A DNA stretch of 55,970 bases, taken from contig JAEUSQ010000041.1 of NCBI GenBank assembly GCA_016788705.1, positions 1 to 55,970 of the forward strand, in the 5' to 3' direction. The position numbers were made by a program, and so were the translations under genes. The number at the start of each line of letters is the position of its first letter. Position 1 is the stretch's first letter. Shown here piece after piece: positions 3-40,136 of this stretch. Origin of the DNA: Bacteroidetes Order II. bacterium. Lineage in GTDB: Bacteria; Bacteroidota; Rhodothermia; Rhodothermales; UBA2364. The notes below the pieces were generated by a model. It searched no databases and was not told the origin of the DNA. It was given only the letters and a program-made list of their open reading frames with translations.

Positions 3-128
3 GCAAGCCTGAGTTTTGTCAGTGCGACTACGGCCACTGGCTCTTACGACAATGCCACTGGCCTCTGGACGCTCGGTAATATCGCCCCCGGAACCTATAG
101 CCTGACGATTAATGTAACGGTGAATTAA
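3..128 (+). CDS. DUF11-repeat protein, C-terminal end (5' part outside window)
   Basis: The open frame enters from the left edge and ends at tandem stop codons (TAA TAA). The 41 visible residues match the second half of a DUF11 repeat: an FVSAT strand, then [15 protein letters not shown], the same signature seen dozens of times in the giant gene at 8499-40079. The protein is therefore probably a secreted beta-sandwich repeat protein. It stops at SLTINVTVN, roughly 35 residues before a complete repeat would end, and carries no C-terminal T9SS sorting domain. That is odd for this family: either the gene is truncated here, or it is exported or anchored differently. A strong terminator follows at once, so this is the real transcript end. 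Confidence 0.8.
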
Positions 129-8498: not shown

Positions 8499-11400
8499 AT
8501 GCACATGTTTGAACGTTGTGTAAGCCGCCTTGGGGCAGGCATTTTTAGTTTTGCAGCCTTTACCATGCTGTTGGTTTCTCCACAAGGGCTTTCGGCTCAG
8601 GAACAAACACTTCAAGATGCAGGAGGAGATCCTATATCAAAAATGGAGATGGCTAAACCACTTATTTTTGAGGATTTAGTGGTTCCGGAGCCTATGTTTT
8701 CAAATGTGAAAGATGGGGTCTCGGAGGTGGCAGACACGCCAAACGCTGTTCAGAATGTGCTATTCACCAATGTGACGGGCTTTGTTTATAATGATTATAA
8801 CAGCAACGGGGTAAAAGATACCTATGATATCGGGGTGCCTGGTGTCTTGGTCTCGGCCTATGGGAGTAATGGGGCGCTTATTACCTCTACCACCACGAAT
8901 GCAAGTGGTTCATATTCTTTGTCGGTTTCGAGCGGGACACAAGTTCGGATTGAGTTTACCCAGATACCCACAGGGTCTTATCCTACCAATGCAGGTAGTG
9001 GAAATGGAACAACGATACAGTTTGCCACCGCACCTGCTTCGAATGTGAACTTGGGGATTAACTATCCGGCAGATTACTGCGAGAATAATCCAAAGATGGC
9101 CACGCCCTTTTACGTAAATGGTAATCCGTTAGGGGGTGGTACTGCGGCAAGCTCAAATGCCTTCTGGACGTATAACTATTCTGATAGTGATTTCAGTTCG
9201 CCGACAGCCACAACCACCGCCAACAAAATTGGCGCTACTTGGGGGGTGGCCTATCAACGCGAATCGAAAAAACTTTTTGCGAGCGCCTTTATTAAGCGGC
9301 ATGCTGGTCTTGGGCCTCTCGGGACGGATGGGATCTACCTGATAGATTATTCTACTTCCACGCCCACTGTTTCTAATTACATTGATTTAGGTACGCTCGG
9401 TTTTGGTGCAGGCAATGATCCGCATACTGGCTTGCCAGCCAATAAAATTGATGCCAATTCAGACACAGGTGCTTTTGATGCAGTTGGTAAAGTGGGTTTA
9501 GGGGATATTGACCTTTCGGAAGATGGTAGCAAATTATATGTCATGAATTTGTTCACCCGCTCTTTGCTAAAAGTAAATATTGGTAGCCCAGCAAAAGCTG
9601 GAAGTGCGGTAACCGCTTCCGATATTTCAAGTTATCCTGTTCCAAACCCTGGTTGCACGGGTGGTGATTACCGTCCATTTGCAACCAAGGCTTATAGAGG
9701 GAAAGTTTATATCGGTATTGTGTGCAATGCTCAATCTTCTCAGGATGCCAATAACCTTCGAGCATTGGTTTATGAGTTTAATGAGTCCACCAGTTCCTTC
9801 AATACTACCCCAGTCTTTACCTCCGGTTTAAACTTTAACAGGGGCACTGCCATTACCAGTTACTCTGCGAATTGGCGTCCATGGATCACGACTTTCCCCA
9901 ATATCAACGATACATTTGTTATCGCATATCCGCAGCCCATTCTCAGTGATATTGAATTTGATGTTGATGGTGCGATGATTCTTGGTTTTACCGATAGGTT
10001 TGGCCATCAATCGGGTCGGGCAAACATTAATCCTGTAACGAATCAATTATTTAGTGGTGGGCAAGCCGGAGACATGTACCGGGCAGCGAAATCCGGATCT
10101 TCTTGGGTACTGGAAAACAACGGTACATCGGGAAGTTTTAGCTCCGGTGGTGCTGGAAATGGACAAGGTCCAGGTGGCGGTGAGTTTTTCTGGGCTGATG
10201 ATCAGTACGAACATGACCAGCAATTTCAGGGAGGTCTCGCCGTGCGCCCTGGATCGGGTGAAATCATTAGTGTTTCAGAAGACCCGATCAACGGTTCTTA
10301 TTGGGCGGGTGGTGTTATTTATAGTAGAAACAATACGGGCGCCTTTGTACGTGGAAACGTATTATATAAAGATTCTAATGATGTGAGTGGTTTTGGTAAG
10401 GCAGTTGGCCTCGGTGATGTTGAATTGCTTTGCTCGCCTGCCCCACTCGAAATCGGGAACCGCGTGTGGTTAGATACTGACTCAGATGGGATTCAAGACG
10501 CAGGTGAAGGGGGCATTTCGGGTGTAACGGTGCGTCTGTTCAAGAGTGGTAGCCAAGTGGCAACCACAACTACCGATACCAAAGGGGAATACTACTTTAA
10601 TAATGGAAACGTAACAGGCGGGCTTTTGCCAAATATGGCATATGAAATTCGCTTAGACAAAACCCAGACGGCTGTTACATCCTATTCTCTTTCAAATGCG
10701 AATGTTGGTACGAACGATGCAATAGACAGCGATGCCACAATGAGTGGCAATAACGCCATAATAGCACTCACGACGGGTGGTTATGGGGTTACCAATCATA
10801 CCTATGATTTTGGCTTTAATGCTGGCCCACCTCCTCCTGATGGTTGGGCATATGTTTGTACGGACGATAAAAATGTGGGGCTATATGGTAGAGGGGTCAA
10901 TGGCGCAACCCTTCCACAAACGATTTCGATTCCAAATAGTGGTGCTGTATTTCAGGTGGTGGCCGAGGTGGTGTATAAAGGTTCTAATCCAGGCGCCACC
11001 ACAACGTTTAAAGATGCTTCCGGAACAGCATATTCTGCAAATCGAATTACTCCTCCAGGTACTAGTTCGGATGTATGGGTTTATCGTGCGGTGCTTCCAG
11101 GAACCGCATCAGTTCGCTATGACAACACCAGTGCCCAATCCAGCCTCCAATCTTTTGTCGTATATCCGTTCTATATGGGAACGGGTGATGGTAAATCCAC
11201 CACAGGTAAATTTACGACCCTAAGTGGCTACAATGATATTCAAACCTTGACCCTCAATATTCCAACCGATGCAGGTAGTCGGGATTTGAAAGTGACCGTT
11301 CCAATTTCAGAATTGACAAATGATGGGCGTGCCCTCAAGGTGACGGCAACGGCTGGTGGCGTGAGTAACTCAGTCATTATCCGTGGGCCAGATACCAGTT

Positions 11401-14400
11401 TGGGGAATTGCTGTTTGGCCATGCCAATGGTGACGCTCACCAATGTTCCGGCAACGGCCACTTCTGTCACAATCACGATAGATACACGCAATGGCCAGGT
11501 GGTTTCGGGTGTAGATGGCCAGTCTTATGTGATTGCAGGAGCCTTGGAAGCGGAAGTGAATTGTGCCAAAGCCAAAATAGGGGATTATGTTTGGGAAGAC
11601 CGTAACCGTAACGGTCAACAGGATACAGGAGAACCTGGTATTCCCAATGTGCAGGTTAAGTTGTTGGATCCTTCAAACAATACCCTCAGCACTACGACGA
11701 CCGATGGCAGTGGGATGTACATGTTTGGCAACTTACAGGCTGGGACTTATAAAGTGATGTTTACAACTCCTTCTGGATATGTTCCGACCCTTAAAGATCA
11801 GGGTTCTGATACCAGTGACAGCGATAACGATCCAACCACAGGTATGACAGGAACTTATACATTGGTAGCTGGCCAAGAAAATAAAACGGTGGATGCTGGA
11901 TTCTATAAAGTTGCAGATCTTGAGTTAGTAAAAGTAGTGGATAATGCCAATCCTGTAACGGGTGGAACCGTTAACTTTACGATTTCTGTAACGAACAAAG
12001 GACCTGCCCAAGCCACAGGCGTAGAGGTGAAAGATTTGTTACCAACGAACTTGGTTTACCAAAGTGCCACTGCCAGCCAAGGCTCTTATACAAATGGAAC
12101 GGGTATCTGGACGGTTGGAACGCTTAATGTGAACCAGACGGCTACCCTGCAAATCCGTGCAACAGCCAATGGGACGGCTAAGAACTGTGCTGAAGTCACA
12201 AAGGCTAATGAGTTTGATTCCGATTCAACGCCAAACAATTACAACAATGGAACCGGGCCGAACGAAGACGACGATGATTGTAAAGACGTTGGCCCTGTAA
12301 ATAAGATTGACCTTGAACTTACCAAAGCCGTAAGTGCAACCTCTGCAAATATTGGCCAAAATGTTACTTGGACGGTCACGTTGGTTAATAAAGGCCCCAA
12401 TGCCGCAACGGGTGTTACGGTAAGGGAAAATGTACCTGCCGGAACCACTTTCGTAAGTGCAACCCCTTCTCGAGGTTCTTACAACCAATCAACTGGAATT
12501 TGGACGGTGGGCAATGTGGCTGTAAATGAGACACTCACGTTGGCGCTTGTTACCACTATTCAGCAAACGGGTAGTATTATAAATTATGCAGAAGTCAATG
12601 CCGCAAATGAAATGGATGTGGATTCTACACCGGGGAATGGTTCTACAAATGAAGATGATGATGACACCAAGTCTTTGAATGGAACCGGAAAGATTGATCT
12701 TGAACTGACAAAGACGGTAAATAACTCTACGCCGAATTTTAATGATAATGTCACGTTTACGGTGACCGTTCGGAATGTCGGCCAAATTGCCGCAACAGGG
12801 GTTGAGGTAAGTGATGTGTTACCCGCAGGGCTTCAGTATGTGAGTGCGACGGCTTCTCAAGGATCCTATGTTAATGCAAGCGGTATTTGGACGATCGGTG
12901 GAATGGCGGTTAATGCAAGCGTAAACCTGCAAATTGTGGCGAAGGTCGTCACGACCAATCAGGTGACCAATTATGCCCAGGTTTCGAAGGCCAACGAGAT
13001 GGATGTGGATTCTACGCCGGGTAATAATTCCACGAATGAAGATGACGATGACCAAGTTACTCTTGGGCCGAAGTCGCTGATTGATTTGGAATTGACAAAA
13101 CTGACCAATAAGACCACCGCTAATGTAGGAGATACCGTTGAATTTACAGTGTCGGTAGTGAATAAGGGGCCCAATACTGCCACAGGCGTTGCTTTAGAAG
13201 ACCTTCTCCCGAATGGTATGTCGTTCAGTGCTGCTACGCCAAGCCAAGGGAGTTATAATAATGCAACAGGTCTTTGGACGGTAGGGACATTGAATGTCAA
13301 TGCAACTGCTACCTTGCTGATTCGCACCATAGCCAATGCAACCGCAAAGAACTGTGCACAAGTAAAAGCCGCAGATCAGACCGATGTGGACTCGACACCG
13401 AACAACTTTAACAGTGTGACCGAGACACCAAACGAAGATGATGACGATTGTAAGAGTGTAACCGTAGCACCCAAGATTGATTTGGAATTGACCAAAACCG
13501 TAAATAATGCAAGTCCGGTTGCGGGAAATAACGTCACCTTTACCATTACCGTTACCAACAAAGGGCCGAGTGCTGCTACGGGTGTAAATGTGAAAGACCT
13601 ACTTCCGAATGGTCTTACCTTTGTATCTGCTACTCCAAGCGTCGGTAATTATAACAGTGCTACGGGTGTTTGGTCTATTGGCAATGTAGCCGTAAATGCA
13701 ACCCCCACCCTTGCGATCACGGCGACGGCAACCGGAAATCCTTCTATGGCCACCAACTGTGCCGAGGTGAGCAGTGCCACCGAAGTTGATGCCGACTCTA
13801 CGCCAAACAATGCTTCTGCAACCCATGAAGACGATGATGCCTGTGCCAAAGTCACTACTTCACCGCAGCGCATTGATCTGGAATTAACAAAAACGGTTAA
13901 CAATGCCAACCCGACAATTGGTGGAACGGTCTCCTTCACCTTGACGGTTATCAATAAAGGACCCCAAAATGCCACGGGTGTTGCGATAGATGACGTGTTG
14001 CCAGGTGGGTTCCAATATGTTTCTAATAGCGGTGGATATAACCCAACGACTGGTTTGTGGACGGTAGGGAACTTGAATGTGAATCAAACCGCCACGCTTA
14101 CGATTACCGGAACCGCAACGGGTACGCCCAATACGGTTCGTAATTGTGCAGAAGTGGGTACCGCTGATCAATTGGATACGGATTCTACGCCGCGAAACAA
14201 TGTCCAAACCGAGGATGACTATGCCTGTGCGCAATTTACCGTACAACCAAGAATTGATCTGGAAGTAAATAAGGTGGCCAATACCAACAGTGTTCCTGTA
14301 GGTGGAGAAGCCAGCTTTACCATTACTGTGGTGAATAAAGGGCCAAGTGAGGCGACGGGGGTTGTGCTTAAAGACTTGTTGCCTGCGACCGCCACGTTTG

Positions 14401-32400: not shown

Positions 32401-35400
32401 TTATAAGCGCTACACCGGAAACAGGGGCATACAATACGGCTACCCATGTTTGGTCGTTAGGTCAATTACTGAGTGGTCAGGCCAAGAAACTGAAAGTCAC
32501 TGCTACGGTGACAAACGCTACGCCGGATATCAACTTTGTGGCTGTAACCAAGTTGAACGAACAAGACCCTACGCCAGCCAAGGCCCAAGTAACCGTAACG
32601 CCGCTTAGTGGGACCCGTGCTGCCGATGTTCAAATTACCAAGATTGACCAAAATGACCCCGTTAAACCTGGTGACGACTTGGTCTATACGATCTCGGTGG
32701 TTAATGCCGGGCCAGATACTGCCGATAACGTGGAAATCTCGGATATCTTGCCGAATGGTCTTACGTTCCAAAGCGTGGACGTGTACCCAACTTCAGGGTG
32801 GACAGTGAATACAAGTCAGGCAAATACGGCCGCACGCCGAATTGCTGCGACAACGGCAACCATGCCTGCTGGCTCGGTCGCTACCTTCGTTGTAAGAACC
32901 AAAGTGAATTCGAATGTAACCGTTGGAACCGAACTTGAAAACCTTGCTTCGGTAACCACTACTACACCAGATCCAAAGGCAGACAACAACAGCGACAAAA
33001 CAACAACAACGGTTTCCGACAAACCATTGGAACAAGCCGCCGATCTGCAAATCCAAAAAGTAGATCAGTCGGATCCGGTGAAGCCAGGAAGCATATTGAC
33101 CTATACGCTGCAACTTACGAATGCAGGTCCGGCAACGGCACAAAATGTCTTGTTGACGGATGTATTACCCAGCAATACCACCTTTGCCTCGGTACAAGTC
33201 AATCCGCCAACTGGATGGTCTATCTCGGCTCCGCCTGTAGGTGGAACGGGTAGTGTGGTACTGTCTAACCCAACGTTACAAATGGGCTTTGCCACCGTTA
33301 CCATCTCGGTCAATGTGGCTTCAAACCTTGCGGATGGGACGCTTTTATACAACACGGCAACCATTAGTGGAAGTTTACCGGATCCGAACAAAGACAATAA
33401 CACATCAACGGCCACCACTTTGGTGCGCCAAGAGTCTCCAGTCTTTGCTGCAGATCTTCGGGTAACCAAGTTTGATTTGGTTGATCCAGTGAAAGCAGGT
33501 GAAACTCTCACTTATACGATAACAGTTACCAATGCTGGACCTGCTACGGCAACCGATGTCGTATTGGTGGATGCGCTACCTGCCTTTATGACCTTCCAAA
33601 ACCTGAGTGGTGTTCCAAGCAACTGGAATGTAACAACACCCAGCATTGGACAAGGTGGCAATATTCGTCTTACCGCTTCTAACTTCCCGGTAGGTTCATT
33701 TACCTTCACCATAGGGACCAAAGTGGATCAAACGGTTCCGGATAATGCGCTTTTGACGAATGTTTCGGCTGTTTCGGCTTCGAGTTTCGACCCGAATCCG
33801 GATAACAATACCGATACTGAAACTACCTTGATTAAGAACGGACAAGTATCTGACCTCAGCATTCTGAAGGTGGCTTCGGCGACAAAAGTATCGCCAGGTC
33901 AGACACTTAATTATACAATTACGGTTACGAACATTGGCCCGAATCCGGCAGAAAACGTTCGTGTAACGGATATTCTACCTGCTTCGCTAAAGTTTGTATC
34001 GGTTGCCAATGTACCTGCTGGCTGGACCGTTCTGGCGCAACCCGCAGCTGGAGCTTCAGGTCAGGTGGTGTTGACTGCGGCAAATGTGCCATTAGGCTCT
34101 TATACCTTTAACATCAACACATTGGTGGACAACGCGGCAACCAGTCCTTCCTCCGTGAATAACGTCGCTACGGTGCTCTCTACGACGATAGATCCGAATC
34201 CGTCGAATAATTCCAGTGTTGTGGAAACTATGATTGGTGAGCCACAGAATCGGGCCGATATCTCTGTGACGAAGCTTGGTCCAGCGACCGCGCAACCAGG
34301 CAATAACATTACCTATTCGATTCTGGTAGCGAACAACAGTGCAACCATTTCTGCCCAAAACGTGGAAGTTTCGGACGTCTTGCCTGCCAATGTTTCCTTT
34401 GTTTCTATCACTGGTGTACCGGGTTCGTGGACCGCATCTACGCCGCAAGCGGGTACTTCTGGAAGCATTTTGCTCTCTACAGCAAGTTTTGCTCCGGGTT
34501 CGTTCCAAGTACAGATAACGGTGAAGGTGGCAAACAATGCCGTAGCTGGAACTGCCGTGGTCAATACGGTTGTGGCTACTTCCTCCACACCGGATCAGAA
34601 TACGGTAAATAATACCAGTACCGTAACGACGACCATCGAACAACGTCCGGGTGTGGCCAATCTTTCAATCCAGAAACAAGATGACCGTGACCCTGTACGT
34701 GCGGGAGAATCCATTACTTATACCATTACGGTGAACAATGCCGGACCCGATTCTGCACAAAATGTGAAGGTGACGGATACCTTGCCTTCTGGAGTCGTCT
34801 TCCGTTCGGTAAGTGGCGTTCCCGTAGGATGTAACGCGAATACACCACAAGTTGGGACAAATGGCTCTCTCTTGCTTGCCTGTGCAACGGTTCAGCCCGG
34901 TAACTTTGCCTTCCAAGTGGTTGTGGACGTGAATGCTGCCATTCCGGAAGGTACCCTCTTGGTGAATAATGCCATTGTAACTTCGGAGACCAACGACCCA
35001 GATGCTTCTAACAACATCGCAACACAAACCACCCAAGTGGGCGGAAGCGGTGCTGACCTTAGCATTATCAAGTCGGACTTTCCGGACCCAGTAACTCCTG
35101 GAAACCAGTTGAAGTACACGCTTACGGTACGTAATGCTGGCCCTTCTACGGCAAGTAATGTGACCATCACCGATGTGTTGCCGGGGAACCTTCGCTTCTC
35201 GAGTGTGGTGAATGCACCTGCCGGATGGGCACTCGGTGTACCAACCGTTGGTACAAATGGTATCGTTCGGCTTACTGCGGCTAACTTCCCGGTAGGATCC
35301 TTCTCCTTCGATATCATTGGCGAGGTAGATGCAAATACTCCTACGGGTGATGTTATTGCAAACACGGCATTCATCAATAGTATTACACCCGATCCGAATC

Positions 35401-38400
35401 CGTTGAACAATGCCTCGACCGTAACAACCAATACGCCGGGGACACCGACCGCACAGGCCGATCTGCAAATTGCCAAGACCGATAGCCCCGACCCTGTAGA
35501 TGCAAATGGAACCATCACTTATACCGTCACTGTGACAAACTTAGGCCCGGATACAGCGCGGAGTGTGGTCATTAATGATCCACTTCCCAATACCCTAAAC
35601 TTCCAATCGGTCTCTGGATTGCCATCAGGGTGGTCGGTTGTTTCGCAACCTGCAGTAGGTGGGAAAGGAAACCTTCAACTCTCTACGTCGAGTTTTGCAC
35701 CGGGCTACTTTAGCTTTACGGTTCGGGCAACAGTGGACGGAAACGCGGTTCCGGGAACGGCTGTCTTGAACGGTATCGGCATTGGTGCTGTTACGGGCGA
35801 TCCGAATCCATTTAATAATAATTCCTCGGCGCAGACTTATATAAAGATTCCGCCGCCAGGAACGACAGACCTTACTATTGACAAGAGTGACGTGAACGAT
35901 CCGGTCGCTCCGGGTGGAACCATCACCTATATCGTTAAGGTTACGAATAATGGACCGGATGCGGCACAAAACGTGACCATCTCGGACGCGATTCCTGCGA
36001 ATACCACCTTTGTGGGTCTAAACAACCTTCCGGCTGGATGGACCATTACGAATCTGCCTCCAGTGGGTGGAAGCGGAACGCTTACACTTGCCAACTCCTT
36101 TATTCCGGCAGGTGGTGTCTCTAACTTTAATGTTCTGGTTCGGGTGAATGCCGGATTGGCAGATGGAGCCATCATTACCAATACGGCGGTGGTGAACTCT
36201 TCCACAACATCCGAAACCAACTTGAACAATAACTCGGACACCGAGACAACGACCATTAAAACGGTAACGGGTCCCGATCTCTCGGTGACAAAGACCACTG
36301 GTACACCTACGGTTGAGCCGGGTGGCTTAATTACCTACACCTTGACGATTACCAACTCTGGGCCTTCTGCTGCTTCCAATGTGACGGTAACGGATGCCTT
36401 GCCTGGTGAACTGACTTTTGTAAGTGCCTCTAATGCACCACAAGGCTGGAATCTTACGCTACCAGCATTGGGTACGAATGGAACCATAACCATGAGCACG
36501 CCAAACTTTGCCCAAGGTACTGTTACCATTAACATTACGGGCCGAGTTGGCGGACAAGTGGCTGATGGAACTATTATCGCAAACACCGCAAGTGTTAGTA
36601 CAACTGGTGGAAACCCAGATCCAAACCCGAATAACAATAGCTCTACCACCACTACCACGGTACAAGGGCCTAAGTTCTCGGATCTATCTGTGGTGAAAAC
36701 TGCGCTATCGGGCACGGTTCTTCCGGGAGCAACCCTCACGTATAACCTAACGGTTACCAATGCGGGGCCTGCTGTTGCTCAGAATGTAGTGGTAACAGAC
36801 GTATTGCCCTCCAATACTGTCTTGGAGAGTTTTACAAACCTGCCCACAAACTGGACCGCAGATACTTCGATCCCAGGCAGTGTTATCTTCAGAACGGCGT
36901 CTATGCCAATCGGAACCGTAACCATGTCTCTTATCGTAAAAGTAGCGCCAACCACGCCTGCCAATACGGCACTGATTAATAATGTAACGGCTTCTTCCAC
37001 TACGCCCGATCCTAATCCGGGAAACAACGGAACCACTACCGTTACCATAGTAACTGGAATACCTACCAGTAGTACGGCAAACTTGACGGTGATCAAAACG
37101 GCATCGCCCAATCCGGTGGAAGTGAATGGTATCCAGACGTACCTGATTACTGTGATCAACCAAGGTCCGGATACGGCGGTAAATCCGGTTGTAGCGGATA
37201 ACCTGCCAGCAAATGCCAACTTCCAAAGCATCAGTAATGTGCCAAGTGGTTGGAGCATCACCACGCCATCGGTTGGTACCAGTGGTCAGATAAAAATGAC
37301 TGCTCCATCCTTCCCTGTAGGCTCCTTTACGTTTATCGTGACAACCAGAGTATCGGCAAGTACAACCAATGGCCAAGCGGTAATTAATGGTGCAACAGTT
37401 GCTTCTACCAGTAACGACCCGAATCCGTCGGATAATACTTCGGTAACGGTAACCGTAGTGAATACACCGCTCCAACTGGCTAATCTCTCGATTACAAAGG
37501 TAGCAAATGCCTCACAGGTTGCACCGGGTGGAACGATTGATTATACCCTTTCGGTAACCAATGCCGGACCTTCGGTAGCACAAAATGTGATTGTTCAGGA
37601 TGTTATCCCAGCCAATACAACCTTTGTAGCGCTTACAGGGGCAATAGGAGGTTGGAGTGTTCAAACACCAGTTGTGGGTACGCGCGGCGTGGTGACGCTT
37701 CGGGCGTCGAATGTCCCTGTTGGTACGACGCTCTTTGTGCTGCGGGTTAAAACAAATGAAGGACTCAATGCCGGAACCCAAATTGCTAACGTAGCTTCGG
37801 TTCTTTCCGATAATCCGGATACAAACCCGAATGACAATGTGACGCCTCCAGTTGTTGTAGTTATTTCTGGACCGCAAGGACTTGACCTGAGTATTCGAAA
37901 GGTTGCAAACAAATATCAACCGCAGAATGGTGACTTGGTAACGTTCAGTATCACTGCTACAAACAATACCATTGGCACCACAGCGACCAATGTGGTGGTC
38001 ACAGACCTTCTACAAACTGGTCTTTCGTACTTCGGTTCAACGGCAACGCAAGGATCGTATAACCCTGCAACTGGACGGTGGACCATCGGAACTCTGACAG
38101 GCGGCCAGAACGTTACCCTTCAATTGCAAGCAACGGTAAACGCTAACGCACCGGCAATTGTAGTGAATACCGCTTCGGTCACGGGTACAGAAATTGATAC
38201 AAATCCAACCAACAATGTATCAACAGTGTACCTGAATCCGGTTGGATGCTCCAGTGGCCACGATGGAGGGATTGAATCTGAGGGTTCGATGGCCATCGCG
38301 CTGGCCAATCGCCTTTACGAACGTCGCTTCCAAGCGGCCCTCCTCGAAGAGAAAGGGGAACTGCCTTCGTTTAATATCTTCACGCATGGTGAAACGATTT

Positions 38401-40079
38401 TGAACAAGACAGATGCGAATCCGGATGGATTCAAGTTGAACTGGACAAATTCTGCCGCCGCTGCAGGCCGTATCGGAACATTAATCCCAGATATTGGTCC
38501 GGAAAATAGCCAAGCAATTGATAACACACCTACCGATCTACCACGCATTACCAATGCCGTCGAAGTGGTAGGGGTGGACTACTTCAAGCAGGAAGATAGC
38601 CGCTTTAAGCGACTCGGTGCGATTCTCGCGATGACGACGCTCGGCACAGAACTCTACGAACATACCAAAGCCGTCTGTGACCGTTTTGGTGGTGGGGAAC
38701 TGCGCAGTGTAGAACACATTGACGTGAACGGGCAGCCATTTGTGATGATTCATACCTATACGCCAGATGGTAAATTAGACTATGGAATCAGTTTTGTGGC
38801 TTACAAAAAAGCAGGAACTTGGACCATAGACAGCCGCCATGTTTTGGCTGATTACAAAGTGCAGGCTGGAGCCGAAGAAGTATATAACTTCCAAGTTTGG
38901 GGTTCTGTGCCTAACTATGCTGAATTCCTGCTGAAAGACCTGTTAAGCAGAATGGCAGTACAGGGGCCTGTCACGTATCTGAACACGGCGCAAAACAAAC
39001 CCGAATTGCCGGATGTGTACATCAAGTCTGGACGCTATGAGAGTGGAAAACTGATGCTGAATGTTGTGAACAATGTAGGCGCAACGGAACTGGTACTAAC
39101 CGGAAAAATTCGGACCAGTGAAACGGTTCCTGCAGCCAATGCCCAAACGGCTAGCATTCGCATTCCGCTACCTGCAGGCACTCACGTAACCGTTGAGGCA
39201 AATGTGGACATTAACGGGGATTTTGTGAACGATCCAATTTACGATGTCCCGTTTGTGGTCTCGAACAACAAAACGGCTACCAAAGACCAGCTCTACTTTG
39301 CAGATGGTACTTGGGCGTACAATAGTTCGTTGGGGAATGCGAATGTGAGCCTATTTAATACCAGTGCTCAAGCCTCTTATGTGCCAGTGAGTGGATACTA
39401 CTACCTCAATCGTGCAGCCGAAATTACTGGTACTGTATCCGACTGGGTAAGTATGTATCGCACGTTGCGTCCAGGTGGCTCGCCCGTTGATGTTAGTTCC
39501 TACGACTTCATTACATTCAATGCCTCCGGTTCGGGTACCGTAGAAGTACAATTACAAAAAGCGGGGATCAATACCTGGGATCACTTTAGCAAGACGATCT
39601 CGCTCAGTCCTACAACGCGGAAATACACCATCAACTTCTCTGAGTTTGCCCGTGCGAATGGCGTGCGTGGCCAGTTCAAAGCAAGTGCTACGGATGTAAA
39701 CCTGCTGGCGTTGTACATGCGTGGCCGCAGCGCAAATACACCTTTCTCAATGAAGATCACGGATGTGCGCTTCGGAAAGATTGGTGTACCGAACGAAGCA
39801 TCGGATGAGTTGCCAAGAACAGTAGCGCTGAATGGAAACTATCCGAATCCATTTAATCCTTCCACCAGCATCAGTTTTGAATTGCCGCAAGCCATTGAGG
39901 TTCGTCTCGAGGTGTACGACCTGCTTGGTAAGCGTGTATCCACGTTGGTTGATGGGTTCATGAATGCTGGACGCCACGAAGCAACGTTCGATGCTACCAA
40001 TCTACCAAGTGGTACCTATCTCTACCGCCTGACAGTTGGCAATGCCATTCTTACGAAGAAAATGACGCTACTGAAATAA
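8499..40079 (+). CDS. Giant secreted DUF11-repeat surface protein with T9SS sorting domain (about 10,526 aa)
   Basis: One uninterrupted frame encodes about 10,526 residues. It starts with a signal peptide (MHMFERC, a hydrophobic core, cleavage near LSAQEQ). Approximate layout: SdrD-B-like domain 92-190; beta-rich region 191-647; SdrD-B 650-775; unknown domain 780-1020; SdrD-B 1025-1137; DUF11 blocks of 17 repeats (1139-3334), 20 repeats (3335-5871), two divergent repeats (5872-6173), 15 repeats (6174-8040), 13 repeats (8041-9794) and one cap repeat; unique region 9916-10437; T9SS type A domain 10438-10526. DUF11 domains are Ig-like beta sandwiches found in surface proteins. The protein is inferred to be an extracellular, surface-anchored filament for adhesion, biofilm or an S-layer-like coat. 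The ATG at 8499 was chosen because it gives a normal signal peptide; ATG 8505, ATG 8385 and TTG 8334 are alternatives. It seems monocistronic. Confidence 0.95.
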   Translation: MHMFERCVSRLGAGIFSFAAFTMLLVSPQGLSAQEQTLQDAGGDPISKMEMAKPLIFEDLVVPEPMFSNVKDGVSEVADTPNAVQNVLFTNVTGFVYNDYNSNGVKDTYDIGVPGVLVSAYGSNGALITSTTTNASGSYSLSVSSGTQVRIEFTQIPTGSYPTNAGSGNGTTIQFATAPASNVNLGINYPADYCENNPKMATPFYVNGNPLGGGTAASSNAFWTYNYSDSDFSSPTATTTANKIGATWGVAYQRESKKLFASAFIKRHAGLGPLGTDGIYLIDYSTSTPTVSNYIDLGTLGFGAGNDPHTGLPANKIDANSDTGAFDAVGKVGLGDIDLSEDGSKLYVMNLFTRSLLKVNIGSPAKAGSAVTASDISSYPVPNPGCTGGDYRPFATKAYRGKVYIGIVCNAQSSQDANNLRALVYEFNESTSSFNTTPVFTSGLNFNRGTAITSYSANWRPWITTFPNINDTFVIAYPQPILSDIEFDVDGAMILGFTDRFGHQSGRANINPVTNQLFSGGQAGDMYRAAKSGSSWVLENNGTSGSFSSGGAGNGQGPGGGEFFWADDQYEHDQQFQGGLAVRPGSGEIISVSEDPINGSYWAGGVIYSRNNTGAFVRGNVLYKDSNDVSGFGKAVGLGDVELLCSPAPLEIGNRVWLDTDSDGIQDAGEGGISGVTVRLFKSGSQVATTTTDTKGEYYFNNGNVTGGLLPNMAYEIRLDKTQTAVTSYSLSNANVGTNDAIDSDATMSGNNAIIALTTGGYGVTNHTYDFGFNAGPPPPDGWAYVCTDDKNVGLYGRGVNGATLPQTISIPNSGAVFQVVAEVVYKGSNPGATTTFKDASGTAYSANRITPPGTSSDVWVYRAVLPGTASVRYDNTSAQSSLQSFVVYPFYMGTGDGKSTTGKFTTLSGYNDIQTLTLNIPTDAGSRDLKVTVPISELTNDGRALKVTATAGGVSNSVIIRGPDTSLGNCCLAMPMVTLTNVPATATSVTITIDTRNGQVVSGVDGQSYVIAGALEAEVNCAKAKIGDYVWEDRNRNGQQDTGEPGIPNVQVKLLDPSNNTLSTTTTDGSGMYMFGNLQAGTYKVMFTTPSGYVPTLKDQGSDTSDSDNDPTTGMTGTYTLVAGQENKTVDAGFYKVADLELVKVVDNANPVTGGTVNFTISVTNKGPAQATGVEVKDLLPTNLVYQSATASQGSYTNGTGIWTVGTLNVNQTATLQIRATANGTAKNCAEVTKANEFDSDSTPNNYNNGTGPNEDDDDCKDVGPVNKIDLELTKAVSATSANIGQNVTWTVTLVNKGPNAATGVTVRENVPAGTTFVSATPSRGSYNQSTGIWTVGNVAVNETLTLALVTTIQQTGSIINYAEVNAANEMDVDSTPGNGSTNEDDDDTKSLNGTGKIDLELTKTVNNSTPNFNDNVTFTVTVRNVGQIAATGVEVSDVLPAGLQYVSATASQGSYVNASGIWTIGGMAVNASVNLQIVAKVVTTNQVTNYAQVSKANEMDVDSTPGNNSTNEDDDDQVTLGPKSLIDLELTKLTNKTTANVGDTVEFTVSVVNKGPNTATGVALEDLLPNGMSFSAATPSQGSYNNATGLWTVGTLNVNATATLLIRTIANATAKNCAQVKAADQTDVDSTPNNFNSVTETPNEDDDDCKSVTVAPKIDLELTKTVNNASPVAGNNVTFTITVTNKGPSAATGVNVKDLLPNGLTFVSATPSVGNYNSATGVWSIGNVAVNATPTLAITATATGNPSMATNCAEVSSATEVDADSTPNNASATHEDDDACAKVTTSPQRIDLELTKTVNNANPTIGGTVSFTLTVINKGPQNATGVAIDDVLPGGFQYVSNSGGYNPTTGLWTVGNLNVNQTATLTITGTATGTPNTVRNCAEVGTADQLDTDSTPRNNVQTEDDYACAQFTVQPRIDLEVNKVANTNSVPVGGEASFTITVVNKGPSEATGVVLKDLLPATATFVGASASQGSYVNASGLWTVGNLAINGSATLLLTAKINSTTNNCVEVNAANQTDIDSTPNNNSTTEDDDACATISTTPVIDLELTKTASTTTPVIGQNVTFTISVVNKGPSNATGVTVSDLLPTGLQFVSANPAAAYNAATGAWTIGNVAVNQTVTLQIVAKPTTTEQVRNYAQVATANETDIDSTPGNNSNTEDDDDAVVLSTRPQIDLELTKTVNTTSPQLGGTVTFTLSVVNKGPAPATNVTVSDQLPAGLTFVSASGVNGSYNNTTGIWSIGNIAVNQVVSLQITATVNSTNPITNYAQVNFATETDIDSTPGNNSTTEDDDDQVTIQGAAKIDLELTKTVNTTAPNINDNVTFTVTVVNKGPNNGTGIEVRDALPAGLQFVSSSATQGSYVASTGIWTIGNLAINQTVQLQIVAKVTTTNTVINYAQVNKANEQDIDSTPGNNSTTEDDDDQVILSGKPVIDLELTKSVNTTTPAINGDVTYTITVVNKGPSNATGVTVSDLLALGQTFKSATATQGGYTSATGSWNIGNLAVGQSVRLDIVTTVTTTDPLRNYAQVATANETDIDSTPGNNSNTEDDDDAVLIQAAKKIDLELTKSVNNNAPIVGQNVIFTLSLINKGPSGATGVAVKDALPAGLAFVSASPSVGSFDNGSGIWTVGNLANGQAVTLQITATVNTRDLVTNYTQVSAANEPDVDSTPNNNSTTEDDDDQVSLQGTPRIDLELTKTVDNNKPAINSNVTFTITVVNKGPNNGTGIEVKDVLPTGLQYVSSSSTQGGFNPTSGIWTVGNLAVNQSVELTLVAKMTTANTVVNYAQINKANETDVDSTPGNNSTTEDDDDQVTLTGEARIDLSLTKVVNNSAPVAGTSVTFTVTVRNDGPSPATGVNVKDLLPAGLTYQNFTTASGSYNNATGIWSVGNLAVNTTASLQITALATGTPATVDNCAEVSAAGQTDVDSTPGNAANVKEDDDACAKVTTSPQRIDLELTKVVNNATPVVGENVTFTVTVQNKGPQNATNVQVSDFLPNGMEYVSSSSSVGGYNAATGSWVIGNLAVNQSVALQIVAKANGTATNCAEVSRASEMDVDSQPGNNSTNEDDDECRTVTVQPRIDLELTKVVDNNIPKVGENVTFTIRVVNRGPSNATGVAVKDLLPTGLIYVSNTPSAGTYVPATGIWTIGNMPVNAAENLLITANVAAAGQIVNYAQVSAANETDIDSTPNNNSTTEDDDDQVVISGQPIVDLELQKTASKQEVLVGENVVFTIRVANTSAYSATNVKVVDVLPSGFTFVSASDPAFDAATKQWTVGTLAAGASKTLNLTVTANQAIAMTNCAEISNQSEADLDSTPSNGVSTEDDYGCAQVNVKPRTASLDITKAVDKVVANVGETVIYSITVRNNGDQTLPELTVNDTQALQLNTPQYTLSGDATGSGAWTGTLKITPLGGLAPNEVVTVRISGTVPTSLLGSNFRNTATVSAPNVDPKTSNEVETRVPVANLTINKQVDKTAASPGDPLSYTLTVTNVGDAPATSILVNDGAAVTNLTNPTYTVTGGTPASGNWTGSLTITPGGIGLAKNQSIIIRINGTVPATATPGTVLVNSASVASPQDPNGTTPSNPVQTVIGGADLVVAKDVDKTAAQAGDQLLYRITITNKGTATASNVVLQDAVPLASPKYAIGADFLYATGGTAWPSSNSLTLPNSIAPNTTVTVFIRGIIPTNTPSGAVVQNIAQASSPNDPDGPAVSPPVQTVINAADLAVTKTVNKTAAQPGDFIAYTITITNNGNGDAKTILVSDAGAMALQNPTYTAVNAAPTGPAAWTGQLTFTPVNPLKKGESITVYISGTVPASTAPGTIIPNTAQVSSPEDPTSPVTSTPVQTVIGAADLVVTKEVSQTAAQPGDQLMYKIVVKNQGTATATNVSVTDAVPLSTPKYAIGADFNYATAGTAWPGTITLPTALAPNATATIYIRGLVPAVPPGSVLQNIAQASSPNDPNGSEKSNPVQTVINAADLVVDKTVNKNAANAGDVLTYTITIRNNGNATANTITLNDAGALALQNPTFTVTGGVPASGTFTGTINLIPTGGLVPNEVMTVLITGTIPTTTAPGTVIPNVAQVSSPEDPTSPVQSPEVQTVIGAADLTVNKTVDKANAQVGDQLTYTLTVTNNGTANAKTVLVDDPQVVASLQNVTYTVTGGTPTSGTWTGSLNITPTGDLVPGESMTIVIKGTIPATTTPGTVIPNTAQVSSPQDPTSPNQSPTVQTVVGGANLSVNKTVNKTAAQVGDQLVYTITVTNNGTSSANTVTLDDPGVLALSNPTYTVNGGTPAAGAWPTSGSLVITPTGGLVAGESMTITIVGIIPATTAPGTSIKNTAQVSSPQDPGDPKKSPTVETIIGVADLVIDKKVDKAAAQAGDILTYTLTITNNGVAAAASVKVDDAQAASELQNVSYTVNGGTPASGTWTGSLTVTPTGGLVPGESMTVVITGTIPANTTAGKVISNTAQASSPQDPTSPVTSPEVNTVVGGADLVIVKAVNKSVAQAGDQLIYTITVTNNGTAAANSVKVDDAQATSALQNPTFTLTGGIPASGVWTGSLNITPTGGLVSGESMTLVITGNLPSNVPAGTSIPNSAQVSSPQDPKGTKTSPTVTTVIGAADLTVFKEVSKTAAQAGDELLYKITVTNKGTATATGITLTDALPLTTARYNVGADFAYATGGTAWPTNNTVSLSNLAPNAAVTVFVRGLIPTNTPAGSVIPNTAQASSPTDPSNPNPSNTVTTVIGAADLVVQKSVDKSAAQSGDQLRYVITVTNTGTATATSVQLTDNLSIGSARYNVGADLSYPAGGTAWPTTNTIGLGNLAAGASTTVYVRGLIPAVPAGSVIENIAQASSPNDPTGPAQSPVVKTVINAADLTVTKAVDRSAAQAGDRLTYTLTITNNGNAPANTVRLEDSVLLTNPTFTVTGGTPASGNYTGIINLIPTGGLVQNESMTVTITGLIPTNTPIGTVINNVAQVSSPEDPTAPVKSPNVQTVIGAADLVVAKTVNKTAAATGDMILYVVTVSNQGTATANNVVVNDDVPLTNPKYNIGADFAYATAGTTWPSNASITLPTSLSPGASATIYIRGRIPNVVPGAILENIAQASSPNDPTSPAQSPKVQTVVNAADLAVNKTVNKVAANVGEELVYTLTITNNGNATANTITLNDPVSISNPTFTASGATPASGNWTGSTVFTPTGGLASGASMTVTIRGTIAANTPIGTVINNTAQVTSPQDPTSPVNSPTVQTVVGGGNLRITKAVDKTAAQAGDQLTYTINVTNNGTGVVNTLTIDDTNALALTNPTYALIGGTPTSGAWTGSLVVTPTAGLVSNETLTLTITGTIPSGAAAGTILQNIAQVSSPQDPTGPKQSAPVQTVVGAAQLSIVKDVDKTAVQVGDEVMYRVTVTNKGTATATSVTLADAVPLTNPKYNLNADFNYATTGTAWPASNILTIPALAPNAATTVFIRGLVPSNIPSGSVLENVATVSSPQDPNGQQASAPVRSVVNAADLVITKTADKATAAAGQSLTYTLTVKNNGNATANTVTVDDGPALALQNPTYTVNGGTPTSGAWTGSVVITPTAGLVSGESMTITITGTIPSNTTAGTVINNVAQASSPQDPTSPVQSPNVQTVIGGANLVIVKDVNKSSAQAGDELLYRITVTNQGSVTATNVVVNDALLLTNARYNVNSDFVYPTAGTAWPAGNSINIPNLAANGSVTIFIRGLIPSLPSGSVLNNVATVSSPNDPTGPKQSNIVQTILGGADIALSKLVDKSSAKVGDQLSYTLIVRNNGTSRANTINLTDNIGLTNTSYRINNGAVVSPWPGTLNMTSASVSAMPLDPNQEIRIVISGIIPTGLENTVLNNVAVASSPEDPTSPVTSNTVSTAIVSENPALAVTKRVTNITTASNSNSVTFQIQVVNTGNTDLTNLNVTDDLVNTFINTARPIAGDYSSISGGTVQFTAGTGTFNPSYNGKNSGSVNLLAPGASLPKGATATITFTVNGVVPASSADYTNTTNVDGTAPTGQKVVGVASTTFGFGVPLINVFKTVAGAPIQKADGSMDVKYRITVTNPGTVRVTNVRLTDRLIPDVFPATFTVTVPGKPAIVGSAGTFNLTPNVLYDGNVNPDVLLQNPSNYLDPNASVTFEFTTNIQTNGSTNVGPFTNKACAEASGSSLGANACGSADPVSLVRFASDIAVEKTVDKAVANVGDKVTFTIVAKNLGPNNATGVVLTDLLPSGLSLSAASASSGTYNSGNGQWAIGDLVVGESKVLTIVANVATSGSFVNTATRTASSPTDPNASNDVSRATVCAGTGCGGQFADVGITKGVSDLSPSVGSKVIFTIDLYNRGPFDATNVVVSDPLPAGLTFVSATKGAYNAGIRTWSYTQPFIGAGETKRFFIEAQVDAAGTLTNVVNITSLDQTDPVTSNNSDFAIVNPQGPVADIEVLKSADKAAVNLGENVTFTILVTNNGPTAATNVSVSDKLPGSMTFISASPSAGTYNAATGVWTIGNLAVNQTVNLKIVGNATQNGTTTNVATRLSSSPTDPVNANDQSEATVCAGPSCSAQVADVAVDKEVVSGTITPEVGASVLYNIVVKNNGPFDATNVVLNDVIPAGLTYKAATGGTYNNANRTWAITIPLLKNGESKTYRIEVRVDQVGEIINSVRVIGLDQTDPVRSNNEDSATINPNTPQADIKVEKYVSKTVANVGENVTFTVAVTNNGPQAATGVKVGDTLPTGLTLVQSSATQGTYAGGVWDVGALAVGESRVLTVVANVSANGNFTNTAIRSASSPADPNPSNDSSSAKVCAGSGCAVNFADVGVRKSVNNPIPNVGENVTFTIEVYNNGPSDATDVKVNDVIPTGLTYRTATGGAFDNAGTPKWAVTIPLLKVGERVFYNIVMTANSTATISNTAVIERLDQTDPVGGNNAFTVTLNPVEAADVRLTKSANKVVTQVGEQVTFTVTVTNDGPNTATNVRVQDFVPAGLTVTGVSTTKGTWAAPEWNVGSLTRNESATLQMVVTVTANGRYENIAQVSAMNQRDPDSTPGNSNPDEDDQASATICAGTGCGTTQFTDLAVTKVVDKVANAVGDVVTFTVTVRNNGPAPATGVVLTDQLPANYNVTLATPSRGTITGTGVARTWSIGNMAVGEAVVMQIVGIPTSDGIFPNTVTVRGDQSDLLEYNNEARATFCAGTACGTVQNADLQIFKVVDKLAPQVGENVRFTITASNDGPANATGVRVTDILPAGLQFVSASNVSYNPANNDNIWDVGNLQAGQKVQMEIVAKVLDLTGTITNTASITGNQTDPVPSNNEASAVISSQAVVDLLLDKTVDRETPSVGENVTFTIVVSNASTRQATGVKVTDLLPTGVSYVSQSLTAGTYDKNTGLWTVGTLNPGQSQTLSLTVKVESAQSVINFALVSGLDQIDPTPASDFARITPIQSVDIAIEKTVDVASPKVGDTVKFTVSATNLSAVTATNVRVSDALPNGLTLTNVSSTKGTFDPVTGIWNVGTLQPGAANKGQLVITALVNTSERIANIATLVGVDQTDTNPANNQAIAVIAPGVSADLQIQKSVSKDKPGLNETITFTLTVRNLGPGTATNLLVSDVLPSSSDLQYISSSPAGVYNSATNTVTWTVPTLAANAPPLTYTITAKTLLGGSKTNVATVRGDQTDPNPNNNSDNVSICVDCPADQVDIAVTKSADKLEPKFGEVVRFTITARNNSTTAATGVVLEDILPAGLNLVPVSNPDVTAVGTLVKWNVGSLTANQTKSLTLDVQVNTYSVSTNIVTLTKVNQQDTNPDNNTAYVTVVPKVDPSNGVDLFMQKFVSGANRVNKGDNVTFKLVVTNVGSVDATNVTVDDVLPATGVQLVSANPASSFNSTTGIWNAGTLKAGDSQTLEITVKANEAGCYANVAKVFGSTPADSNLSNNGAVAQFCAGAPIPVADLELSKTVNNPTPKVGDTVEFEITLSNRGPAPATGIEVSDVLPANITFISATPETGAYNTATHVWSLGQLLSGQAKKLKVTATVTNATPDINFVAVTKLNEQDPTPAKAQVTVTPLSGTRAADVQITKIDQNDPVKPGDDLVYTISVVNAGPDTADNVEISDILPNGLTFQSVDVYPTSGWTVNTSQANTAARRIAATTATMPAGSVATFVVRTKVNSNVTVGTELENLASVTTTTPDPKADNNSDKTTTTVSDKPLEQAADLQIQKVDQSDPVKPGSILTYTLQLTNAGPATAQNVLLTDVLPSNTTFASVQVNPPTGWSISAPPVGGTGSVVLSNPTLQMGFATVTISVNVASNLADGTLLYNTATISGSLPDPNKDNNTSTATTLVRQESPVFAADLRVTKFDLVDPVKAGETLTYTITVTNAGPATATDVVLVDALPAFMTFQNLSGVPSNWNVTTPSIGQGGNIRLTASNFPVGSFTFTIGTKVDQTVPDNALLTNVSAVSASSFDPNPDNNTDTETTLIKNGQVSDLSILKVASATKVSPGQTLNYTITVTNIGPNPAENVRVTDILPASLKFVSVANVPAGWTVLAQPAAGASGQVVLTAANVPLGSYTFNINTLVDNAATSPSSVNNVATVLSTTIDPNPSNNSSVVETMIGEPQNRADISVTKLGPATAQPGNNITYSILVANNSATISAQNVEVSDVLPANVSFVSITGVPGSWTASTPQAGTSGSILLSTASFAPGSFQVQITVKVANNAVAGTAVVNTVVATSSTPDQNTVNNTSTVTTTIEQRPGVANLSIQKQDDRDPVRAGESITYTITVNNAGPDSAQNVKVTDTLPSGVVFRSVSGVPVGCNANTPQVGTNGSLLLACATVQPGNFAFQVVVDVNAAIPEGTLLVNNAIVTSETNDPDASNNIATQTTQVGGSGADLSIIKSDFPDPVTPGNQLKYTLTVRNAGPSTASNVTITDVLPGNLRFSSVVNAPAGWALGVPTVGTNGIVRLTAANFPVGSFSFDIIGEVDANTPTGDVIANTAFINSITPDPNPLNNASTVTTNTPGTPTAQADLQIAKTDSPDPVDANGTITYTVTVTNLGPDTARSVVINDPLPNTLNFQSVSGLPSGWSVVSQPAVGGKGNLQLSTSSFAPGYFSFTVRATVDGNAVPGTAVLNGIGIGAVTGDPNPFNNNSSAQTYIKIPPPGTTDLTIDKSDVNDPVAPGGTITYIVKVTNNGPDAAQNVTISDAIPANTTFVGLNNLPAGWTITNLPPVGGSGTLTLANSFIPAGGVSNFNVLVRVNAGLADGAIITNTAVVNSSTTSETNLNNNSDTETTTIKTVTGPDLSVTKTTGTPTVEPGGLITYTLTITNSGPSAASNVTVTDALPGELTFVSASNAPQGWNLTLPALGTNGTITMSTPNFAQGTVTINITGRVGGQVADGTIIANTASVSTTGGNPDPNPNNNSSTTTTTVQGPKFSDLSVVKTALSGTVLPGATLTYNLTVTNAGPAVAQNVVVTDVLPSNTVLESFTNLPTNWTADTSIPGSVIFRTASMPIGTVTMSLIVKVAPTTPANTALINNVTASSTTPDPNPGNNGTTTVTIVTGIPTSSTANLTVIKTASPNPVEVNGIQTYLITVINQGPDTAVNPVVADNLPANANFQSISNVPSGWSITTPSVGTSGQIKMTAPSFPVGSFTFIVTTRVSASTTNGQAVINGATVASTSNDPNPSDNTSVTVTVVNTPLQLANLSITKVANASQVAPGGTIDYTLSVTNAGPSVAQNVIVQDVIPANTTFVALTGAIGGWSVQTPVVGTRGVVTLRASNVPVGTTLFVLRVKTNEGLNAGTQIANVASVLSDNPDTNPNDNVTPPVVVVISGPQGLDLSIRKVANKYQPQNGDLVTFSITATNNTIGTTATNVVVTDLLQTGLSYFGSTATQGSYNPATGRWTIGTLTGGQNVTLQLQATVNANAPAIVVNTASVTGTEIDTNPTNNVSTVYLNPVGCSSGHDGGIESEGSMAIALANRLYERRFQAALLEEKGELPSFNIFTHGETILNKTDANPDGFKLNWTNSAAAAGRIGTLIPDIGPENSQAIDNTPTDLPRITNAVEVVGVDYFKQEDSRFKRLGAILAMTTLGTELYEHTKAVCDRFGGGELRSVEHIDVNGQPFVMIHTYTPDGKLDYGISFVAYKKAGTWTIDSRHVLADYKVQAGAEEVYNFQVWGSVPNYAEFLLKDLLSRMAVQGPVTYLNTAQNKPELPDVYIKSGRYESGKLMLNVVNNVGATELVLTGKIRTSETVPAANAQTASIRIPLPAGTHVTVEANVDINGDFVNDPIYDVPFVVSNNKTATKDQLYFADGTWAYNSSLGNANVSLFNTSAQASYVPVSGYYYLNRAAEITGTVSDWVSMYRTLRPGGSPVDVSSYDFITFNASGSGTVEVQLQKAGINTWDHFSKTISLSPTTRKYTINFSEFARANGVRGQFKASATDVNLLALYMRGRSANTPFSMKITDVRFGKIGVPNEASDELPRTVALNGNYPNPFNPSTSISFELPQAIEVRLEVYDLLGKRVSTLVDGFMNAGRHEATFDATNLPSGTYLYRLTVGNAILTKKMTLLK
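8772..9070 (+). other. First SdrD-B-like domain of the giant protein
   Basis: This segment encodes VTGFVYNDYNSNGVKDTYDIG, then GVLVSAYG and a TTTNASGSYSLSV strand. That is the pattern of prealbumin-like SdrD B domains, in which the Asp/Asn loop (DYNSNGVKD) binds calcium. Confidence 0.75.
9071..10440 (+). other. N-terminal beta-rich, propeller-like region of the giant protein
   Basis: About 455 residues lie between two SdrD-B domains. The strand-turn patterns LSEDGSKLYVMN and YRGKVYIGIVCN recall beta-propeller blades. A ligand-binding role at the distal tip is an inference. I do not recognise a named family. Confidence 0.4.
10447..10825 (+). other. Second SdrD-B-like domain of the giant protein
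   Basis: The canonical opening IGNRVWLDTDSDGIQDAGEG is followed by GVTVRLFKSG, a TTTDTKGEYYFNNG strand and a HTYDFGF ending. The DTDSDGIQD loop is a clear EF-hand-like calcium site. Confidence 0.85.
10840..11571 (+). other. Unrecognised domain between the second and third SdrD-B domains
   Basis: About 240 residues starting GWAYVCTDDKNVGLYGRG contain four Cys (including GNCCLAMP) and strands such as LTLNIPTD and SVTITIDTRN. It is probably an all-beta module. I cannot assign a family. Confidence 0.4.
11572..11910 (+). other. Third SdrD-B-like domain of the giant protein
   Basis: KIGDYVWEDRNRNGQQDTGE opens a standard SdrD-B module that continues with VQVKLLDPSN, TTDGSGMYMFGNL and ends DAGFYKV. 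It immediately precedes the DUF11 array. Confidence 0.85.
11913..18500 (+). repeat. DUF11 block 1: 17 repeats of about 129 residues
   Basis: Seventeen consecutive repeats start at about 11913, 12303, 12689, 13077, 13472, 13869, 14250, 14629, 15015, 15401, 15788, 16175, 16562, 16949, 17346, 17728 and 18113. Most begin IDLELTK(T/V)VN, continue with FTxTVxNKGPxxATGVxVxDxLP and GxWTxGNLAVNQ, and end with an acidic tail of the type DxDSTPGNNSTTEDDDD. Eight repeats have a Cys pair (NCAEV and DDxCxxV) and nine have neither (NYAQV and DDDDQV). Confidence 0.93.
18501..26112 (+). repeat. DUF11 block 2: 20 repeats of about 127 residues in two subtypes
   Basis: Twenty repeats start at about 18501, 18873, 19260, 19645, 20029, 20403, 20785, 21169, 21557, 21938, 22322, 22706, 23084, 23457, 23840, 24212, 24595, 24976, 25357 and 25735. 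They share an opening of the ADLVVxKxVxKTAAQAGDQL type and an ending of the AQxSSPxDPT type. One subtype carries NPTYTVTGGTPASG with GGLVxGESMTxTI; the other carries a YNVGADFxYATGGTAWP segment with AxxTVFIRGLIP. The acidic tails of block 1 are absent. Confidence 0.92.
26113..27017 (+). repeat. Two divergent repeats at the seam between blocks 2 and 3
   Basis: Two longer repeats begin at PALAVTKRVTN and PLINVFKTVAG. They keep the VTFQIQVVNTG and YRITVTNPG strands but have insertions and no close relatives elsewhere in the array. Their positions mark the change from one repeat type to another. Confidence 0.7.
27018..32621 (+). repeat. DUF11 block 3: 15 repeats of about 125 residues with Cys-pair linkers
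   Basis: Repeats start at about 27018, 27400, 27765, 28143, 28516, 28890, 29253, 29652, 30035, 30400, 30757, 31127, 31507, 31881 and 32259. They open with ADIxVxK and VGENVTFTIxVxNNGP. Many linkers contain CAGxxC (for example VCAGTGC, VCAGPSC, ICAGTGC), in the first six repeats strictly at every second junction. Confidence 0.9.
32622..37882 (+). repeat. DUF11 block 4: 13 repeats of about 135 residues
   Basis: Repeats start at about 32622, 33041, 33452, 33850, 34256, 34658, 35054, 35458, 35867, 36275, 36679, 37079 and 37482. The hallmarks are a DPVxPGxxLTYTI opening, VxDxLPxxxxF, GWxVxTPxVGTxG and an ending of the type TPDPNPxNNxSTxTT. Each is about 10 residues longer than the other types because of the GW-containing hairpin. 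Confidence 0.92.
37883..38245 (+). repeat. Terminal cap repeat of block 1/3 type
   Basis: This last DUF11 repeat opens LDLSIRKVANKYQ and has QGSYNPATGRWTIGTL, which is the block 1/3 signature rather than the neighbouring block 4 type. It joins the array to the unique C-terminal region. Confidence 0.75.
38246..39809 (+). other. Unique C-terminal region of the giant protein
   Basis: About 520 non-repetitive residues lie between the array and the sorting domain. The first part is helical (AIALANRLYERRFQAALLEE) and contains a segment with FVMIHTYTPDGK. The last third (about 39300-39790) looks like a galactose-binding-type beta sandwich (YDFITFNASGSG, VEVQLQKAG, KYTINFSEF), similar in pattern to carbohydrate-binding modules. 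The family assignment is tentative. Confidence 0.45.
39810..40076 (+). other. T9SS type A sorting domain
   Basis: The last 89 residues carry GNYPNPFNPSTSISFELP, then VRLEVYDLLGKRVSTL, AGRHEATFDATNLPSGTYLY and end KKMTLLK. This is the standard C-terminal domain that targets proteins through the type IX secretion system and allows surface attachment. Confidence 0.92.
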
Positions 40080-40099: not shown

Positions 40100-40136
40100 A
40101 ACGGGCACTTCTGTAAATGAGGTGCCCGTTTTTTTT
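40100..40136 (+). terminator. Rho-independent terminator of the giant gene
   Basis: AACGGGCAC (40100-40108) and GTGCCCGTT (40122-40130) form a perfect 9-bp stem followed by a run of T residues through 40136. It begins 20 bases after the stop codon. Confidence 0.9.

Follow-up and report, generated by a model that had tools for sequence, protein, structure and literature searches.

A giant protein of 68 DUF11 repeats from the UBA2364 genus, probably a T9SS-exported surface fibre

A single 31.6-kb gene in a bacterium of the UBA2364 genus encodes a protein which is probably a T9SS-exported, single-polypeptide surface fibre, covalently stiffened along its length and presenting a diversifying head. 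This reading is based on the sequence, the domains, a conserved residue triad, conservation among relatives and the presence of genes for SprA and PorU, from which we infer the bonds, export, length, oligomeric state and ligand. The window analysed is an entire contig (C41, 55,970 bp) of the source genome, G000, which comprises 4.28 Mb in 66 contigs with a completeness of 99.9%. The genus sample consisted of G000, G001 (Bacteroidetes bacterium UBA2364) and the sister species G002; a literature search found no description of the habitat of UBA2364. Three features had been missed in the original prediction for this gene: the triad in all of the repeats, the frozen length of the chain as against its diverged head, and a CBM11-like fold near the C-terminus.

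The gene lies on the forward strand, as do all window features given below, in a stop-to-stop frame at 8319-40079 (10,586 codons, no internal stops, no Ns; stop codon at 40077-40079). The single open frame of about 10,526 codons first proposed stood as a frame, and its start was moved from ATG 8499 to ATG 8505, which gives a CDS at 8505-40079 of about 10,524 aa (alternative ATGs are at 8499 and 8385). The start is probably ATG 8505 because the G002 orthologue has Lys in place of the 8499 ATG of G000, while it retains both the ATG equivalent to 8505 and the signal peptide that follows it. No clear protein-level conservation was seen upstream of ATG 8505, and protein constraint is much weaker over the first 100 codons with the upstream stretch included. 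The giant gene stands alone, with glgA and glgC divergent from it upstream, and genes for an RNB-domain ribonuclease and for tamB convergent to it downstream. An intrinsic terminator with a 12-bp stem and a T-run (40100-40130) lies about 20 bp 3' of the stop, which is weak evidence alone since shuffled sequence gives 0.8 terminators on average.

The chain begins with a predicted Sec signal peptide (8505-8597, MFERCVSRLGAGIFSFAAFTMLLVSPQGLSA), placed by eye and conserved in three species. After it come SdrD_B domain 1 with its DxNxxGxxD loop (8775-9074), the genus-specific head or 'tip' domain of about 465 aa (9060-10454), SdrD_B domain 2 (10449-10823), a linker region (aa 820-1060, 10842-11564) whose sole match is the edge of the next domain, and SdrD_B domain 3 (aa 1063-1173, 11571-11903). 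The three SdrD_B stretches score 242 bits, and the limits of the first two domains were set by eye. The stalk consists of DUF11 repeats 1-17 (class I, a period of about 129 aa with acidic DxDSTP...EDDDD linkers, 11916-18452), repeats 18-37 (class II, 18507-26075), the divergent repeats 38-39 (a period of about 150 aa, 26127-26915), repeats 40-54 (class III, 27024-32585), repeats 55-67 (class IV, a period of about 135 aa, 32625-37841) and repeat 68 (37884-38228). It is followed by a conserved C-terminal region of about 530 aa (38235-39824) and a T9SS type-A C-terminal sorting domain (39840-40064). Among tail types it matches type A alone, with 42.5 bits to TIGR04183 (cut-off 23), and it scores 41.5 bits to Por_Secre_tail (PF18962; cut-off 27).

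This layout from profile searches bears out the domain order originally proposed, including the three SdrD-B-type domains near the N-terminus and the T9SS sorting domain at the end. The proposed count of about 68 DUF11-type repeats proved to be exactly 68 domains over the Pfam cut-off (PF01345). The proposed four repeat classes are visible as repeats 1-17, 18-37, 40-54 and 55-67, with one blurred boundary: I/III, II and IV form clearly distinct groups on clustering, but class III is looser and lies near class I. Repeats 38-39 are odd in this clustering and repeat 68 is closest to class I.

The DUF11 repeats carry the evidence for covalent stiffening. A DUF11 domain has been solved (9IFR) and the family renamed CLIPPER; its Lys, Asp and Asn residues form an intramolecular isopeptide bond which makes the domain resistant to heat and to proteases, and the triad residues are missing from some members of the family (PMC12617251). 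In the giant, at the positions corresponding to Lys715, Asp748 and Asn806 of 9IFR (PMC12617251), Lys and Asn are each present in 68/68 repeats and the third, catalytic position is Asp in 67/68 and Glu in one, with the triad Asn of repeat 39 falling beyond that repeat's Pfam match. One further position, another Asn, is invariant in all 68, and the triad is kept in 68/68 repeats of the G002 orthologue. From these residues we infer that a Lys-Asn isopeptide bond would form in the repeats. AF2 predicted three consecutive repeats as a chain of Ig-type domains, each an Ig-like beta-sandwich (pLDDT 92), and Foldseek matched this model to multi-domain Ig chains such as integrin legs, a match which is informative for fold only.

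The genus also encodes two paralogous fibres. The larger has about 11,600 aa and 89 DUF11 domains; it was found at G001:C48 and G002:C18, and no orthologue of it was seen in G000. The smaller, a 7.6-kaa fibre with about 41 DUF11 domains, lies at G000:C59:8585-31429 and also at G001:C39 and G002:C14. The triad is present in 84/89 repeats of the larger paralogue and in 36-37 of 40-41 repeats of the smaller. In the DUF11 domains of shorter proteins at the fetched loci it was found in 7/17, a small sample scored with a model built on the giant.

The two ends of the chain differ in how widely they occur. Relatives of the head were found in 3/99 genomes searched, all within the genus. Neither Pfam, NCBIfam nor PDB sequences gave a useful match to the head, and no relative of it was found in a viral collection. 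The C-terminal region had been called unique, a description which did not hold: it is common to shorter T9SS-type Bacteroidota proteins. It is present in 13/40 relatives and occurs in Flavobacteriia (for example Mesonia, Polaribacter and Brumimicrobium), mostly in shorter proteins, and in the alignment a T9SS-type tail comes after it. Its second half (39300-39791) is predicted to be a CBM11-like beta-sandwich, with a VIA-align Z of 14.4 and an rmsd of 3.1 over 142 aligned residues, in a model of middling quality (mean pLDDT 63.6 for the region). This likeness is one of fold only, and a shared fold shows no function; a CBM beside the anchor would fit a role in holding on to surface polysaccharide. 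The structural matches cover the second half only, leaving out the first half (aa 9951-10300), and window positions 38235-39284, with the motifs EVYNFQVW and YxHTKxxCDR, had no Pfam family match.

The source genome encodes SprA (1602 bits) and PorU (1031 bits), the translocon and sortase that would export such a protein, and has 81 matches to T9SS tails. The T9SS is known to export large folded proteins, for example the 6,497-aa SprB (PMC9251779). The giant polypeptide would be carried into the periplasm by Sec, and each DUF11 bead would fold and then close its Lys-Asn isopeptide bond. The C-terminal T9SS signal would be visible only once the whole chain had been made, so the T9SS would have to pass a thread of roughly 1 MDa, made of domains which cannot be unfolded, through SprA. 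Outside the cell, the 68 cross-linked beads would form a protease-resistant stalk, hard to unfold, which keeps the N-terminal head at a distance from the cell. A known DUF11 protein, GhlA, has 6,596 aa with 49 DUF11 domains and forms hook filaments of about 180 nm (PMC13319060). Extrapolating from it, at about 3.7 nm per bead (180 nm / 49 DUF11), the giant would be about 250 nm long, and GhlA's mass per residue would give it a mass of about 1.07 MDa. The filament of hundreds of nanometres first envisaged is a fair extrapolation from the measured GhlA filament.

The most serious alternative for the function of the giant is a predatory grappling hook, an oligomeric hook filament which catches prey for killing by a T6SS, as in Aureispira ixotrophy, where the heptameric hook GhpA is T9SS-secreted and acts in predation together with the T6SS (PMC11205867). 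A profile search of the PDB with the repeats returned GhpA as the best match (E 5.5e-8, with 9IFR at 5.7e-6), and the GhlA filament itself consists of DUF11. The source genome also has a T6SS cluster in addition to the T9SS (PAAR, VgrG-like, ClpV-like, TssF, TssE, Hcp, TssC, TssB and TssA; G000:C12:42746-57013). However, DUF11-like beads in common do not by themselves make a hook, the T6SS is common, and the cluster is on a different contig. The head and C-terminal region gave no meaningful E-value to GhpA or any other PDB chain, so the relationship with GhpA was not found outside the DUF11-like domains, although divergent relatives may escape such a search. On balance we consider this hook reading unlikely.

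The giant might instead be an SprB-type motility adhesin moved along the cell by gliding machinery, and it does resemble SprB in being a giant T9SS surface filament. However, no GldJ scored above cut-off in the genome, where only 26-bit fragments were found (a divergent GldJ could be missed), and the giant's tail is of type A. Type-B T9SS tails had no match in the genome, but that search was blank in the controls too. A gliding role is therefore the less likely one, and we regard it as very improbable.

That the gene is an assembly collapse, a chimera or a decayed repeat gene would be in keeping with the 46-N scaffold gap inside the array of the G001 copy (DDTM01000056.1) and with other DUF11 genes breaking contigs in the genus genomes, but it can practically be dismissed given the independently assembled G002 orthologue (10,542 codons), which has the same array without an indel, a dN/dS of about 0.03, and an array in which no stretch of 50 bp or longer recurs exactly and DNA identity between repeats does not exceed 72%. 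At that level of identity short reads can resolve the array, and both flanks of the G001 gap match. The original prediction of one intact gene thus stands.

These orthologues also show how closely the length of the protein is kept. Against the two orthologues dN/dS is about 0.03-0.04. In the comparison with G002, where synonymous change is at or close to saturation (pS about 0.7-0.8), the 9,874 residues from aa 691 to the end, counted from ATG 8385, align with 0 indels at 88-93% identity (about 91% overall). Against G001 (dS about 0.56), 0 indels were found in about 10,500 aligned residues. In flanking genes used as a control there were 4 indel events over about 4,900 residues against G001 (glgC, rnr, tamB and an unnamed gene) and 1 over 923 residues against G002 (glgC and glgA), with 6 further events against G002 in a weakly conserved UPF0029 gene. 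At flanking-gene rates, zero indels would have a P of about 1e-4 or below by our own estimate from this small control set. The same behaviour is seen in the 11.6-kaa and 7.6-kaa paralogues when their orthologues are compared. Exact conservation of length despite saturated synonymous change is unexpected in a repeat protein, and it suggests a fixed working length of the fibre.

The head behaves differently. In the same numbering, aa 101-690 are 54-76% identical to G002, with indels, and 91-98% identical to G001. This pattern may reflect either fast evolution in the G002 lineage or replacement by a divergent allele, two cases which saturated synonymous sites in the head do not separate; the divergence may stem from recombination with another allele and not from selection. 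Because the head varies between species while the stalk and anchor are constant, the head may be a binding tip for attaching to surfaces, partner cells or prey. A surface fibre of this design would serve as an adhesive or capture fibre.

Other genes in the genus suggest a further use of DUF11. In many genes of the three genomes the protein ends in a DUF11 domain which breaks off at precisely position 88 of the repeat HMM and so falls eleven positions short of the reactive Asn; all nine with a complete end retain Lys and Asp. The DNA pattern for this ending, L-T-[ILM/V-like]-[NT]-V-T-V-N-stop, occurs at 16 sites in the three genus genomes and 0 in 193 others, and a reversed control pattern occurs at 0 sites. 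One of the 16 lies in the window itself (3-128, forward strand), where another gene ends with its last DUF11 stopping before the Asn strand; the same fragment is also found at the end of contig C54. The 7.6-kaa fibre shows the converse. After its signal peptide it begins in all three species with QDPQPYLPKV-[AS]-GTIRNCAEVSA..., the final strand of a DUF11 with its Asn, standing as an orphan without any earlier part of the domain.

Lys and Asp kept without Asn in one protein, and the Asn strand alone in another, fit an intermolecular donor-strand isopeptide pair. We are led to suspect, tentatively and with rather more doubt than confidence, that the genus loads interchangeable heads, from at least a dozen cut-DUF11 genes, onto giant fibres via a naturally split DUF11. 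The Asn strand would complement the cut DUF11 as a donor strand and be locked to it by an isopeptide bond between the two proteins, and the giant of the window would be the fused, one-piece version of head and fibre. Several cut-DUF11 genes share the SdrD_B-head-SdrD_B module with the giant. Some lie beside ECF sigma factor and Ser/Thr kinase-TPR genes (G000:C17, C24, C57; G002:C31, C51), with neighbour domains confirmed for C17, the sigma factor confirmed for C57 and the other loci assigned by eye; this arrangement suggests dedicated regulation. Alternatively, the cut DUF11 might be a new secretion signal; the two ends tested against T9SS tail families contained no recognised tail, and a known T9SS tail was rejected as an explanation in the absence of any such family match. 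Read-through or frameshifting past the ends was also rejected, as a loose N-x-A-x-V-like motif appeared in 2/16 downstream stretches and none resembled the last strand; several of the stops are followed by terminator-like hairpins, judged by eye. The literature searched describes no split DUF11 pair; for archaeal threads, which have donor strands, an isopeptide bond of different chemistry has been proposed (PMC9715654). If the split-domain reading is true, bacteria have evolved tag/catcher chemistry of their own to swap adhesin heads, in parallel to the engineered pairs.

Several known systems resemble the giant in part. The CLIPPER domain of 9IFR belongs to the same Pfam family as its repeats, with Lys, Asp and Asn in corresponding positions; the giant strings 68 of them together, each with the triad, and its bond is predicted. 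The staphylococcal MSCRAMM proteins SdrD and SdrC likewise have SdrD_B domains and carry a head on a repeat stalk, whereas the giant has a T9SS tail and a DUF11 stalk and does not match them outside SdrD_B: the full-length MSCRAMM model NF012181 scores 133 bits, coming from SdrD_B, against a cut-off of 2500. SprB of Flavobacterium johnsoniae is also a giant T9SS-secreted surface filament, and differs in that GldJ was not found in G000 and the giant's tail is of type A. Its repeats presumably differ from those of the giant. GhpA of Aureispira sp. CCB-QB1 (PDB 9flp and others) is a giant Bacteroidota T9SS substrate with DUF11-like domains, but it is a heptamer of 5,898 aa, and no match to it was found in the giant's head or C-terminal region. 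GhlA of Litorilinea aerophila (Chloroflexota; PMC13319060) is likewise a giant made mostly of tandem DUF11 beads, and it forms a surface filament. It has 49 of these beads and lacks a signal peptide, whereas the present giant has 68 and carries, besides a signal peptide, the SdrD_B domains, the head and a T9SS tail. The original prediction also did not take into account that such DUF11 fibres have by now been observed as grappling hooks. The giant belongs with these known giant adhesive fibres, as one of the larger members and with an unusually fixed length.
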